64,000 bases of DNA from Corynebacterium appendicis CIP 107643. GTDB taxonomy: Bacteria; Actinomycetota; Actinomycetes; Mycobacteriales; Mycobacteriaceae. Where the stretch lies: the NCBI RefSeq assembly GCF_030408415.1, contig NZ_CP046976.1, positions 558,001-622,000 of the forward strand, read 5' to 3'. Positions within the stretch are counted from its first letter, which is position 1, and every line of letters starts with the position of its first letter. The notes under the pieces are model-generated. The model saw nothing but the letters and a program-made list of their open reading frames with translations. It was not told the DNA's origin and did not search any database. Shown here in pieces: positions 520 through 59,909 of this stretch. Made by a program: the position numbers and the translations under genes.

Positions 520-1610
520 TAGTTCCTCCTTGAATGGCGCAGGGGATCACAGGCCCCCAACTCTACAGGTGGTTCTTGTCCTTCGACCAGCGCGGCCCCG
601 CACCTCGCGCCCATGGCGGCGAGCAGGATGCCGTGGCGGAAATAGCCGGTGGACACCACCACGCGGTCGCTGACCCGGCCGAGATACGGCAGGTCGTCCG
701 GGGATCCGGGGCGCGCGCCGACGTGCGTTTCGATGAAATCGCAATCCTCGATGCCGGGCACGATCTCGCTGGCGTCACGCAACAGTTGCAAAACGCCGCC
801 AGCCTGCGGTTCCGGGCGGTCGTCCTCGCGCGTCGTCGCGCCGATCGTGAGCGTGCCGTCCTGGCGCGGAATCAGGTACACCGGCCGGTCCTCCACGAAA
901 CCTCGGATCACGTGGTCAATCAGCGGGCGCTGGTGCTCCGGCACGCGCAGCTCCACCATGTCGCCGTAGACCGGCCGCAGCTTTAATGGATTCTCGCCAT
1001 CGAACCAGCCCGTCGTCTCGCGCGCGCCGAGCCCATTGGCCAGCACGACCTGCTCGGCATCGACGTCGTTGACGTCGTTCACGGCCTCCGCCACGAATTC
1101 CACGCCCGCATTCGCGCACGCGTCCTGCAGCGCGGCCGCGAACAGCCGCGGCCACACCTGGTGGTCGCCGGGGATATGCACCGCCCCGCTTATCGACGGT
1201 GCCAGCGCCCCCTCCAGCTTCCTCGCCTCCCGCGTGGTGATCCGCTCTGTCGTCATGCCGTGGAGCTCCTGGTAGGCCTGCAGTTCCTCTAGGTGCGTCT
1301 TGTCGGCGCGGTCTTTCGCCACCACCAGCGTTCCGTCAGTGCGGTAGCCGGTCGGTTTGTCGGTGTGTTTCGCCGTCAGCTCGATCAGTTCCGGATACCA
1401 CTTGCCAGCCGCGATCATCAGCGGAAACAGCGGGTCCTGCTTGTAGACCACCTCTGCCGCCGGTGCGAGCATCCCGCCCGCGTGCCAGGTCGCGCCGCTG
1501 GCAGGCTCCGGATCGTAGACGGTCACGTTGTGGCCACGATTTGCCAACGTCAGCGCGGTGGACAGGCCGACGATGCCTGCTCCGAGGATTGCAATCTTCT
1601 GTTCTGCCAT
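519..1610 (-). CDS. thiO: Glycine oxidase ThiO
   Basis: This FAD-dependent amine oxidase of about 363 residues makes the dehydroglycine (iminoacetate) used by ThiG. The N-terminus MAEQKIAILGAGIVGLSTAL contains the GxGxxG dinucleotide fold, followed by the acidic end of strand 2 (VYDPEP). A second DAO-family signature, near STGYFRHGILLAAMGARCGA, closes the FAD domain. The start at 1610 (MAEQ) fits the family best; an in-frame ATG at 1622 would add four residues. The gene begins only 25 nt after the response-regulator gene (12 nt from the upstream ATG), which leaves little room for its own promoter, and no TPP riboswitch is visible here. Confidence 0.9.
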   Translation of the reverse strand: MAEQKIAILGAGIVGLSTALTLANRGHNVTVYDPEPASGATWHAGGMLAPAAEVVYKQDPLFPLMIAAGKWYPELIELTAKHTDKPTGYRTDGTLVVAKDRADKTHLEELQAYQELHGMTTERITTREARKLEGALAPSISGAVHIPGDHQVWPRLFAAALQDACANAGVEFVAEAVNDVNDVDAEQVVLANGLGARETTGWFDGENPLKLRPVYGDMVELRVPEHQRPLIDHVIRGFVEDRPVYLIPRQDGTLTIGATTREDDRPEPQAGGVLQLLRDASEIVPGIEDCDFIETHVGARPGSPDDLPYLGRVSDRVVVSTGYFRHGILLAAMGARCGAALVEGQEPPVELGACDPLRHSRRN

Positions 1611-1634
1611 ATCGCCATCCAACCTACGCTCTTT

Positions 1635-2234
1635 TCAGAGCCAGCCATTGTCGTCGCAGGTGCGCGCGGCTGCAAAGCGGTTGGGTGCTCCAGTCTTGGT
1701 CATGATCGCCGAAATGTAGTTGCGCACCGTCCCCGTGGAGAGGTTCAACCGCGCCGCGATCTGCTTGATTTCTGCACCGGTGAGCGCCTCACGGGCGACC
1801 TCGACCTCGCGCGCAGTCAGCGGTGACGGCGGAGTGAACAGGGATTCCTCCGCGACCTGCGGATCGACGACCCGCAGACCGGCGTGTGTGCGACGCACTG
1901 CGTCGGCAAGCTGGTCTGGGGGAGTGTCCTTCACAATGAAACCGGAAGCCCCGGCTTCTAAGGCCGTGCGCAGGTATCCGGGTCGCCCAAACGTGGTCAC
2001 GATGAGCACCTTGCACGAGGATCCCGCGAGGTCGGCAGCGAGCTCCAGGCCGGTGCGGCCGGGCATTTCAATATCGAGCAACGCCACATCCACATTGTGC
2101 TCCCGTACCGCTTCGACGACACCATCGCCGGAACGGCAAGTGGCTACGACCTCTATATCCTTCTCGAGGTTGAGCAATGCAGACAACGCTCCGACGAGCA
2201 GCCCTTGGTCGTCGGCGATGAGCACCCGGATCAT
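1635..2234 (-). CDS. LuxR/NarL-family response regulator
   Basis: This 199-residue protein has an N-terminal receiver domain, with acidic pair D8-D9, phospho-acceptor D54 in VALLDIEMPG and the conserved Lys in IVKDTPPDQL. A C-terminal LuxR-type helix-turn-helix follows (about 135-195, LTAREVEV...IAARLNLSTGTVRNYIS). It overlaps the histidine kinase gene by 4 nt and acts as its partner. The operon also carries an ABC exporter, so the likely role is sensing an antibiotic or envelope stress and inducing the exporter. Its stop lies 12 nt before the thiO reading frame, so thiOSG could be read through from this operon. Confidence 0.93.
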   Translation of the reverse strand: MIRVLIADDQGLLVGALSALLNLEKDIEVVATCRSGDGVVEAVREHNVDVALLDIEMPGRTGLELAADLAGSSCKVLIVTTFGRPGYLRTALEAGASGFIVKDTPPDQLADAVRRTHAGLRVVDPQVAEESLFTPPSPLTAREVEVAREALTGAEIKQIAARLNLSTGTVRNYISAIMTKTGAPNRFAAARTCDDNGWL

Positions 2235-57579: not shown

Positions 57580-58713
57580 CTACTTCGGGCGTTTGGTGTT
57601 GGTGCGCACGCCTAAAAGGACATCTTCCCAGTGCGGGGTGACGGCCTTGCGACGGCGCTTCTGCGGCTTCTCCTCCGGCTCCGGGTTTTGGAGGAAGTCA
57701 CCCTCCGCGAAGTCGTTCGGCTGGGTTTGGGTGACGGACAGGTTGTCCTCGCCGGCCGGAATATCGTCTTGAGGGTACGATTCTTCTTCCGCGTAATCCG
57801 GCCCCGGCGCGTAGCTGTTGTGCGCGCTGAGGGAGCGCACCGGCTGCGCGAAGGACGGGTCGATGAGGTCTGCCGCGACCGGGTCGCGCGGTTCAGTGGT
57901 GGCCGGGCTGCCCATGGAGCGGCGGAAGAACCACTCCGCGCTGTGCTCCTGCAGGCCCGCCTGCCATGTCACGCGCACGACCCACGGTTCGCCCGCCTCG
58001 CGCACCGCGTCCCAGCGCGCCTCGGACAGGGCGTGTCCGCGTGTGGCGAAGGCGAGGGCCAAGACCTCGAAGAGCGTGTCCGGCGCAGTGCCGTCGTCCC
58101 GTATGGGGTGGGATTGCTTGGCGGCCTCCGCCACCTGCGCGCGCTCCAGCAGTACCGGGTGGGCGTACGGCTCGATGCGGCTTTCGGCCACGCCCATTTC
58201 CTCGGCGAGCGCGGTGGCGTCCGCGCCCGCGCGGATGCGCGCCTGGATCTCGTTCGGGCGCAGTGACAGAGGAGTGGCGAACAGGGGATCGGGTTCCACC
58301 GGCGAACGGACGAGTTCCTCTTCTGGTTCGTGTGCGGGCTCGTCAGCAGGCTCTTGTGCTGGCTCTTCGACGACGGGCTCTTCAGCTGGTTCGGGGGCGG
58401 GAGGGGTCTCCTCGGAGTCCTCAGGGTCGTCGGGCTCGTCGCCGGAGTAAACGGTGAAGGTGGGGCGCGACGGTTCGTCGACAAGCTCTGCGTCGACGAG
58501 CTCGTACTCGTCACCGGAATTATCGAAGGCGTCGGTGAAATCGGCCTCGGCGCTGGTTTCGCTGTAATCGCGTTCGGCATCGAACAGGACCGGATCCGGC
58601 TCGCCGACCTCGCGGAGATCGGCGCGGGGGATGCGGAACCGCTCGCCGTCCTCGGTGCGCAGCACCCAGACGGTGTCCGTCGATTCTTCTGCAACTACAA
58701 AGAGCTCGCGCAT
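57580..58713 (-). CDS. sepH: Septation protein SepH (DUF3071)
   Basis: This 377-residue protein has the N-terminal DUF3071 region MRELFVVAEESTDTVWVLRT. An acidic Pro/Glu-rich stretch (about 90-150) follows, then a helix-turn-helix-like block LRPNEIQARIRAGADATALA. The C-terminus is disordered and ends in TPHWEDVLLGVRTNTKRPK, the short motif shared by SepH proteins. In Streptomyces and mycobacteria SepH binds FtsZ and promotes its assembly. The start at 58713 has AAGGAG at the right distance. Confidence 0.88.
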   Translation of the reverse strand: MRELFVVAEESTDTVWVLRTEDGERFRIPRADLREVGEPDPVLFDAERDYSETSAEADFTDAFDNSGDEYELVDAELVDEPSRPTFTVYSGDEPDDPEDSEETPPAPEPAEEPVVEEPAQEPADEPAHEPEEELVRSPVEPDPLFATPLSLRPNEIQARIRAGADATALAEEMGVAESRIEPYAHPVLLERAQVAEAAKQSHPIRDDGTAPDTLFEVLALAFATRGHALSEARWDAVREAGEPWVVRVTWQAGLQEHSAEWFFRRSMGSPATTEPRDPVAADLIDPSFAQPVRSLSAHNSYAPGPDYAEEESYPQDDIPAGEDNLSVTQTQPNDFAEGDFLQNPEPEEKPQKRRRKAVTPHWEDVLLGVRTNTKRPK

Positions 58714-58778
58714 CCCCAACTCCTTACACCGGTGTCATTCATTGACCCACCTTAACCGATGAAAGACCCTGAACCCGG

Positions 58779-59909
58779 TTACTTCGCGCCGACGCCCTGG
58801 CCGAGCAAGAAGTCGATCGCGCCAGTCAGCTTGGTCACGTCATCGGTGTCGATCGCCGGGAACATGCCGATCCGCAACTGGTTGCGGCCCAGCTTGCGAT
58901 ACGGCTCCGTGTCGATGATGCCGTTCGCGCGCAGCACCTTCGCCAGCTCGGCGGCATCGATGGAATCGTCGAAATCGATCGTGCCCACCACGTAAGAGCG
59001 ATTCTCGGCGTCTGTGACGAATGGGGTGGCGTGCGCGTGGTTTTCCGCCCAGGAGTACAGGGCCTCGGAGTTGGCGCGGGTGCGCTTGACCATGCCGTCC
59101 AGGCCGCCGTTGTCGTTCATCCACTTCACCTGGTCGGCGAGCATGAGCAGCGTGCCCACAGCAGGGGTGTTGTAGGTCTGATTCTTGCGGGAATTGTCCA
59201 CGGCCGTCTGCAGGTCCAAGAACGCCGGGATGAAGCGGCCGGACTCCTTGATCTTCGCGATGCGCTCGATCGCCGCCGGGCTCATCGCAGCCAGCCACAG
59301 GCCGCCGTCGGACGCGAAGGACTTCTGCGGGGAGAAGTAATAAGCATCAGTCTGCGCAATGTCGACGGGGAGGCCACCGGCGCCGGACGTTGCGTCGATA
59401 AGCACGAGCGCGTCGGTGTCCGGGCGGGTGACGGGCACCATCGTGCCGGTCGAGGTCTCATTGTGGGCCCATGCGACGACATCGGCGTCGGTGCCGTCCA
59501 GTTCGCTCGGTTCCGGCGCGGTGCCCGGCTCCGACTCGACGACAGCCGGCTCTTCGAGCCACGGAGCCAGCTTGGAGGCCTTCGCGAATTTGGAGGAGAA
59601 CTCGCCGTAGGTCAGATGCGCGGACTTCTTCTCAATGAGGCCGAATGTTGCGGCATCCCAGAACGCGGTCGCACCGCCGAGCGAGAGGACGATCTCGTAG
59701 CCGTCCGGCAGGGAGAACAACTCGGCCAGACCATCGCGGACGTGGCCGACTAAGTTCTTGACCTCCGGCTGGCGGTGGGACGTGCCCATGACAGACAGAG
59801 CGCCCTTGGTCAGCGCCTCGATCTGGGAGGGGCGGACCTTCGACGGGCCGCAGCCGAAACGGCCGTCGCCGGGCGCGAACTGTGCGGGAAGTGCTGGGTA
59901 GTCGGTCAT
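58779..59909 (-). CDS. serC: Phosphoserine aminotransferase SerC
   Basis: This 376-residue PLP enzyme is of actinobacterial SerC type. It starts [20 protein letters not shown], has [13 protein letters not shown] and the PLP-lysine in [14 protein letters not shown], and the [13 protein letters not shown] end. It transfers an amino group from glutamate to 3-phosphohydroxypyruvate in serine synthesis. It stands alone, divergent from gltA with a 279-bp gap, as in other corynebacteria. Confidence 0.95.

Follow-up and report, generated by a model that had tools for sequence, protein, structure and literature searches.

The window analyzed here, a stretch of 64,000 nucleotides, comprises bases 558,001-622,000 of the single-contig genome (2,284,440 bases) of Corynebacterium appendicis CIP 107643. 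An 11-bp word, GCTTATCGACG, recurs throughout the window. A recount reproduced exactly what an earlier note on this DNA had read from the letters, namely 20 copies, 9 on the forward and 11 on the reverse strand, between positions 1188 and 59403. In 100 dinucleotide shuffles of the window the word occurred 0.03 times on average and at most once. The earlier note had described the repeat as an 11-mer. The word is real, but it turned out to be one spacer form, with NN=AT, of a gapped motif, GCTTNNCGACG (GCTT-NN-CGACG), of which the window holds 50 copies, 20 of them with NN=AT. The note had also described eleven copies of the 11-mer as reading Leu-Ile-Asp. This frame was confirmed, but for 10 copies by the present gene calls; 7 of the remaining window copies are antisense to called genes and 3 lie outside them.

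The whole genome contains GCTTATCGACG 585 times (303 forward, 282 reverse), and the same word reversed, used as a control, once. The gapped motif is present in 1,324 copies (661 forward, 663 reverse; control 92), which corresponds to about one copy per 1.7 kb, mostly within genes. Comparison with Markov-5 and codon-shuffled expectations, the check proposed in the earlier note, bore out the excess in the part of the genome sampled. In 504 kb of the genome, 135 copies of the 11-mer were observed and 8.8 expected by the Markov-5 model, and for the gapped motif the respective values were 294 and 23.2; NN=AT was the spacer in 135 of the 294 copies. Within 481 called genes, 60 synonymous-codon shuffles inside each gene yielded a mean of 5.3 copies of the 11-mer (maximum 11) versus 113 observed, and 31.3 copies of the gapped motif (standard deviation 4.9, maximum 40) versus 266 observed, an excess of about eightfold. 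The genes were called with a simple codon-usage script of our own, not with a standard annotator. Single-base variants of GCTTATCGACG numbered 0-5 each in 464 kb, with the exception of those at position 5 (22, 20 and 16 copies) and of the change of T3 to G (13 copies). A de novo scan for gapped words in 160 kb of the C. appendicis genome ranked GCTTnnCGACG first (70 copies versus 5.0 expected), and among the eight genomes scanned in this way GCTTnnCGATG ranked first in three (G006, G144 and G151).

The density of the motif was 0.61 copies per kb inside genes versus 0.42 outside, and its spacing was a little more even than random, with 7.4% of the gaps shorter than 200 bp versus 12.4% expected. 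No excess at the ends of the called genes was found in the 504 kb. The strand counts were 81 forward and 73 reverse for the first half of the chromosome and 70 each for the second half (504 kb), and the totals over the 139 genomes of the same dialect described below were 76,040 versus 76,098. The motif therefore has no strand or replichore polarity, in agreement with the earlier note, which had argued against a strand-polar signal of the FtsK/KOPS type.

The flanks had been described as not conserved, and this did not hold. On the strand of the word, the bases downstream of the core are rich in C and poor in G from +1 to about +35, and the bias is gone by +36 to +38 (630 gapped copies from 11 genomes, with the background computed per codon position and strand). 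The tail was present in each of the seven sequence contexts with at least 8 copies, in every reading frame as well as in intergenic DNA, and the base preceding the core avoids G. Nine fixed bases within eleven, followed by ~35 bp of C-rich and G-poor DNA, thus form a polar element of ~46 bp. The CGATG form of the motif bears the same tail (170 copies in G006 and 71 in seven named loci), as do leftover words of the minority form (25 T words in G109 and 14 C words in G006). Tail samples from other genomes were small, with 3-18 copies of the 11-mer per genome, and among these the tail was weakest in G149.

In a first profile, based on 119 copies of the 11-mer, C recurred on the downstream strand at every third base. 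A triplet code in the tail was nevertheless rejected because, after correction for codon position, each context peaked at its own wobble position or close to it, and because 63 copies outside called genes were C-rich in all three phases (.46/.40/.37 versus.28). The third-base rhythm is thus largely a coding effect. A helical period of 10.5 bp was not supported either; the profile dips only around +6 to +10 and peaks only at +11 to +15.

The distribution of the motif was determined in an even sample of 201 genomes of the genus Corynebacterium, using class thresholds of our own choice (250 copies for a dialect call, 100 or 120 copies for a weak signal). The CGACG dialect was assigned to 139 genomes, with 280-1,964 copies each and a median of 1,096, and the CGATG dialect to 10 genomes, with 625-1,337 words each, as many as in the C-dialect genomes. 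One genome (G143) had both forms, 10 were weak, and 41 had none. The motif-less genomes contained 8-86 copies of the CGACG form, and the reversed control ranged from 22 to 107 over all genomes. In 113 genomes from other genera within the family the 11-mer, which was counted there instead of the gapped motif, occurred 0-7 times, which is background level. The spacer also has dialects. Three genomes (G113, G164 and G175) contain 1,752, 1,901 and 1,893 gapped copies, only 2, 4 and 2 of which have NN=AT, and none of 22 gapped copies in 24 kb of G164 and G175 had this spacer.

A tree of 84 proteins was built by a quick method, with dialect labels taken from ~20 kb per locus. Among the loci listed, the motif was present in most of one large Corynebacterium clade and absent from other genera and from two separate Corynebacterium groups. 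In quick trees of one or two proteins the dialects cluster, following the phylogeny. The CGATG label needs three changes on the tree, at least two of which are forced by well-supported branches, and C-dialect genomes are nested among T clades. The trees would allow three gains of T as well as one gain and two reversals, and the 25 leftover T words with tails in G109 hint at a change from T to C. In the motif-less genomes no comparable word was found in samples of limited power (39-79 kb of four genomes and smaller samples of others). In one of them (G163), gapped words rich in GGTG were strongly enriched (GGTGGnnnnGGTG, 53 copies versus 10.2 expected in 59 kb; L044, L099 and L100), which perhaps reflects composition or a word of its own.

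Comparison of close relatives revealed that the dialects differ in place. The tad-topA region of C. tuberculostearicum SK141 (CGACG) is 79% identical to that of Corynebacterium sp. ACRPS (CGATG). Ten of the 15 CGACG sites of SK141 read CGATG at the same place in ACRPS, all ten with both spacer bases kept, and the other five have no word there. Conversely, of the 12 CGATG sites of ACRPS, ten are CGACG in SK141, one is CGATG and one is unaligned; all 11 aligned T sites therefore have a word in place in C. tuberculostearicum, and no new T word was found in this region. The second pair comprised G109 and G006, for which 140 kb could be aligned at 81.7% identity (marker identity to SK141 97% and 81%, respectively). 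Of 185 C sites in G109, 70 were aligned, and these read T in 41 cases, C in 4, and no motif in 25. Thus, 41 of the 45 G109 sites at which the core is kept in G006 differ in place at core base 10 (CGATG), whereas 110 of 459 CGACG words outside the motif (24%) read CGATG in this alignment. In the opposite direction, 78 of 170 T sites of G006 were aligned, with C in 42, T in 7, and no motif in 29.

The comparison of orthologous sites suggested in the earlier note likewise indicated conservation between Corynebacterium species. In the two alignment directions, 52 of 81 and 53 of 87 GCTTNNCGANG sites retained the other eight fixed bases; for control words the figures were 6 of 38 and 13 of 42, and for random places 23.5%. 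Taken together, both sets of alignments and the conservation of the fixed bases indicate that the sites hold their position while one base changes, and that both dialects turn over. Upkeep does not seem to be steady everywhere, as only 5 of 12 CGATG sites of Corynebacterium sp. KPL1814 (L125) were intact in C. macginleyi (L136), where the signal may be decaying. These two loci are 88% identical, and 5 more of the KPL1814 sites have a single mismatch in C. macginleyi.

The mobile DNA sampled is poor in the motif. Outside the window, positions 798001-818000 of the C. appendicis chromosome (L023) contain one copy versus about 11.7 expected, the lowest value of 23 stretches. By its genes, this stretch is a predicted mobile metal-resistance island. 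It encodes a copper-transporting ATPase, a small copper chaperone, a HigA-like antitoxin, a mercuric reductase with MerR, and an IS3 transposase; the names were read from translations, and the mercuric reductase and the IS3 transposase are named in matching plasmids. Plasmids of Micrococcus luteus, C. marinum and C. maris share 99% identity with its mer part. Two plasmids of species with the CGACG dialect have one motif copy in 77 kb, compared with 0.40 per kb in sampled chromosome stretches of G109. A 20-kb stretch of G109 (L236) has none. Two further Corynebacterium plasmids, for which the host dialect was not established, have one copy in 46 kb and none in 50 kb. In this small sample of two plasmids and one island, the motif is rich in the core genome and poor in mobile DNA.

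C. appendicis encodes comEA, with SLBB and HhH domains, and comEC, with the competence domain. Its Tad locus contains genes for Ssd, TadA, a T2SSF protein (TadB), Flp (DUF4244), and two small pilin-like proteins, one TadE-like (an NCBIfam match under the cut-off) and one of the Rv3654c type; TadC was named by position only. The Flp pilins of C. urinipleomorphum and Corynebacterium sp. p3-SID1145 share 86-88% identity with that of C. appendicis, and the helicase beside the C. appendicis Tad locus groups with those of the same two species on the tree.

The earlier note had offered a nucleoid-protein or SMC-like site, an uptake word and a methylase motif as candidates. Of these, the uptake word fits best, because the dialects switch in place, the core is joined to a polar tail, and the motif is nearly absent from two plasmids and the island. 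From the sequence evidence, we consider it likely that GCTT-NN-CGACG with its C-rich tail serves C. appendicis as DNA uptake sequence, and GCTT-NN-CGAYG in general is probably the uptake sequence of most of one large Corynebacterium clade. We further lean, with somewhat less confidence, towards the view that it represents a third, independently evolved language of DNA uptake, in a Gram-positive genus whose outer membrane consists of mycolic acids, which operates via a Tad pilus rather than a type IV pilus and has switched dialects in place across whole genomes between close relatives from human skin.

In Neisseria, ComP is the specific receptor for the DNA uptake sequence (DUS). In Corynebacterium, a surface receptor would bind the motif on free double-stranded DNA, and candidates are a minor pilin of the Tad pilus (TadE- or TadF-like) or a protein linked to ComEA. 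The bound fragment would be pulled through the mycolic-acid outer membrane and the wall, and one strand would enter via ComEC and then recombine with the chromosome. Preferential uptake of word-bearing fragments would spread each new word together with the surrounding gene, which could explain why core genes accumulate words, whereas plasmids and islands do not. If the preference of the receptor shifted, old words would be replaced in place by those of the new dialect. The C-rich tail would aid bending or melting during uptake, a role that has also been suggested for the AT-rich segments downstream of the core in the Haemophilus uptake signal sequence (USS).

The sequence traits of the motif match those of DUS and USS apart from inverted terminator pairs. 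The USS of Pasteurellaceae is described in the cited parts of two papers as a nine-base core that occurs hundreds to thousands of times, in either orientation, with less-conserved downstream segments on one side, up to 32 nt in all, and with few variants in the family (PMC12616744, PMC2346458). The Corynebacterium motif shares the length of nine fixed bases, the abundance, both orientations, the small number of variants, and the plan of a core with a one-sided tail. In contrast, its core is unrelated and has a two-base gap, its ~35-bp tail is C-rich instead of AT-rich, and it is a putative uptake word of an actinobacterial genus. The DUS of Neisseriaceae comes, according to the cited part of the source, in species dialects that are a few bases apart and follow the phylogeny, and it accumulates in the core genome (PMC3630211). 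Both features recur in Corynebacterium, whereas the motif sequence is unrelated and the pilus is encoded by genes of the Tad type. A literature search, which covered few subscription papers and no preprints, found no earlier report of the motif GCTT-NN-CGACG among the matches listed. Of 83 papers in which the word or a part of it occurs, the 30 listed had titles with no relation to it.

Several observations weigh against a role in uptake. Sequence-specific uptake is reported, in the cited part of the source, only for Neisseriaceae and Pasteurellaceae (PMC12616744), and the same literature search, within the same limits, found no report of natural transformation in these Corynebacterium species. 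Inverted-pair terminators, which are common for DUS and USS, were not seen: among 271 gaps only 8 neighbours were 120 bp apart or less, and of these 7 were inverted, none closer than 50 bp. The conservation control was weaker in the G006 direction, in which 13 of 42 control words were kept. Of 56 genomes tested, all have ComEC and 55 have the Flp pilin, in each case including all 25 motif-less ones, so that the presence of these genes does not explain the distribution of the motif. (In the Flp-negative genome, G071, the neighbouring helicase lies close to the contig start.) No residue that marks the T dialect was found in the Flp, TadE-like and TadF-like pilins of eight T loci, five of which belong to one clade, and Flp is identical from RNDEG-STIEYA to its end in one C- and one T-dialect species. 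The columns that seem to follow the dialect in part are located in proteins not expected at the surface, namely TadA (E in 7 of 8 T rows versus 2 of 44 C rows), TadZ (Q in 7 of 8 versus 0 of 44) and TadC (A in 6 of 7 versus 0 of 45). They were selected from the many columns of seven proteins irrespective of the tree, and we draw nothing from them.

Some of these observations would fit a chromosomal word like HIP1, maintained inside the cell, for example by sequence-directed repair, by methylation or for the organisation of the nucleoid, and without any role in uptake. Such a word would, like the motif, be present in many copies, lie mostly within genes and be conserved at orthologous sites, and ComEC and the Tad pilin would fail, as they do, to separate motif-rich from motif-less species. 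HIP1 is likewise a very abundant, conserved chromosomal word in cyanobacteria, but it is a short palindrome without a tail. The core of the Corynebacterium motif differs from its own reverse complement and is therefore not palindromic, and the element is asymmetric with its tail on one side. A site needed on all replicons should, moreover, not be missing from plasmids, and we regard this explanation as unlikely. A Chi-like site, or another recombination or defence-nuclease site that marks the cell's own chromosome, would account for a polar and abundant motif that is rare on two plasmids and the island, and the dialects could track an evolving enzyme. However, Chi and KOPS are replication-polar, whereas neither the two chromosome halves nor the strand totals over the 139 C-dialect genomes revealed any bias, which makes such a site quite improbable.

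We give very little credit to the idea that the dialects are a mutational by-product, with a motif-directed methylase acting on the cytosine at base 10 and its deamination to T creating dialects without selection. The dialect base is indeed the C of a CG step, the change is between C and T, and the 11 of 11 ACRPS T sites with a word in C. tuberculostearicum leave no new T word in the tad region. Deamination, however, leaves the abundance and the tail unexplained, and genomes with T words hold as many words as the others. In addition, the 29 of 78 aligned T sites of G006 without a word in the C-dialect relative speak against it, although gain and loss are not told apart there, and the nested C-dialect genomes together with the leftover tailed T words suggest that a change from T to C is also possible. 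We consider it equally improbable that the motif serves as the binding site of a regulator or architectural protein of high abundance. A gapped word with two half-sites could be bound by a protein, but the density is higher in genes than outside, and the copies occur in both orientations and several frames.

If the motif is an uptake sequence, sequence-specific uptake would have a third origin, which lies in a different phylum and probably involves a different pilus. Many commensals of skin and mucosa would then be capable of natural transformation, and tagged DNA could be used to engineer them. The genus would also offer an unusually clear record of dialect change. As close relatives differ at the same single base in many orthologous sites, it could be tested whether selection or molecular drive is responsible. 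Whatever its function, an explanation is needed for a core word that 150 of 201 genomes carry at ~1,000 places and that proved to have a polar tail in all samples of sizeable copy number.

Table. Copies of the gapped motif in the window. Each entry gives the coordinates of the 11-bp core. The C-rich tail follows over the next ~35 bp, 3' of the core on the strand of the word; it was established for the set as a whole and is not given copy by copy.
Feature	Spacer NN	Position	Strand	Match
GCTTNNCGACG copy	GA	360..370	-	exact match
core copy	AT	1188..1198	+	exact match
core copy	GC	1901..1911	-	exact match
core copy	AT	2644..2654	+	exact match
core copy	AG	2788..2798	-	exact match
core copy	AT	4150..4160	-	exact match
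core copy	AG	6362..6372	+	exact match
core copy	GG	6842..6852	+	exact match
core copy	AT	7295..7305	-	exact match
core copy	AT	7424..7434	-	exact match
core copy	GC	8245..8255	+	exact match
core copy	AT	9277..9287	-	exact match
core copy	AT	10739..10749	+	exact match
core copy	GA	10891..10901	-	exact match
core copy	GC	11161..11171	-	exact match
core copy	AT	11546..11556	-	exact match
core copy	GT	11763..11773	+	exact match
core copy	GC	14272..14282	+	exact match
core copy	GA	15669..15679	-	exact match
core copy	GC	17249..17259	+	exact match
core copy	GT	17685..17695	-	exact match
core copy	TC	18259..18269	+	exact match
core copy	AT	18976..18986	-	exact match
core copy	TA	19196..19206	+	exact match
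core copy	AT	21978..21988	+	exact match
core copy	GT	22970..22980	-	exact match
core copy	GT	23429..23439	+	exact match
core copy	CT	24410..24420	+	exact match
core copy	GA	33524..33534	-	exact match
core copy	GA	33593..33603	+	exact match
core copy	AT	34477..34487	-	exact match
core copy	AT	34576..34586	+	exact match
core copy	AT	35395..35405	-	exact match
core copy	AT	37446..37456	+	exact match
core copy	AT	37800..37810	-	exact match
core copy	GA	38325..38335	-	exact match
core copy	AT	39618..39628	+	exact match
core copy	TG	39942..39952	-	exact match
core copy	GA	43491..43501	-	exact match
core copy	CT	43509..43519	-	exact match
core copy	TG	44338..44348	-	exact match
core copy	AT	46300..46310	+	exact match
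core copy	TA	48473..48483	-	exact match
core copy	AT	52858..52868	-	exact match
core copy	TT	54256..54266	+	exact match
core copy	AT	56507..56517	+	exact match
core copy	GT	58476..58486	-	exact match
core copy	AT	59393..59403	-	exact match
core copy	CC	61321..61331	+	exact match
core copy	AA	62198..62208	+	exact match

The ComEC protein of C. appendicis has 531 amino acids (L081:9438-11033, reverse strand), and Pfam found no metallo-beta-lactamase nuclease domain in it; conversion to single strands would therefore need another enzyme. Genomes with high counts tend to have shorter ComEC frames. The length of ComEC, or the loss of its nuclease domain, was dropped as a marker of the motif, because 7 of the 35 genomes with "low" counts proved to have other dialects or spacer forms and 3 were weak, and because no nuclease domain was seen by eye in ten ComEC C-termini, one of which was scanned for families. 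Directly behind comEA-comEC-holA lies a gene for a small ankyrin-repeat protein (L081:8145-8540, reverse strand). All 4 other high-count genomes compared have it in their com region, and none of 5 low-count genomes does; it was rejected as a general marker, since it is absent from the com region of the T-dialect genome G144. In another genome (G162, L086:14590-15579), short gene fragments, one of them transposase-like by eye, break the interval before the Tad operon.

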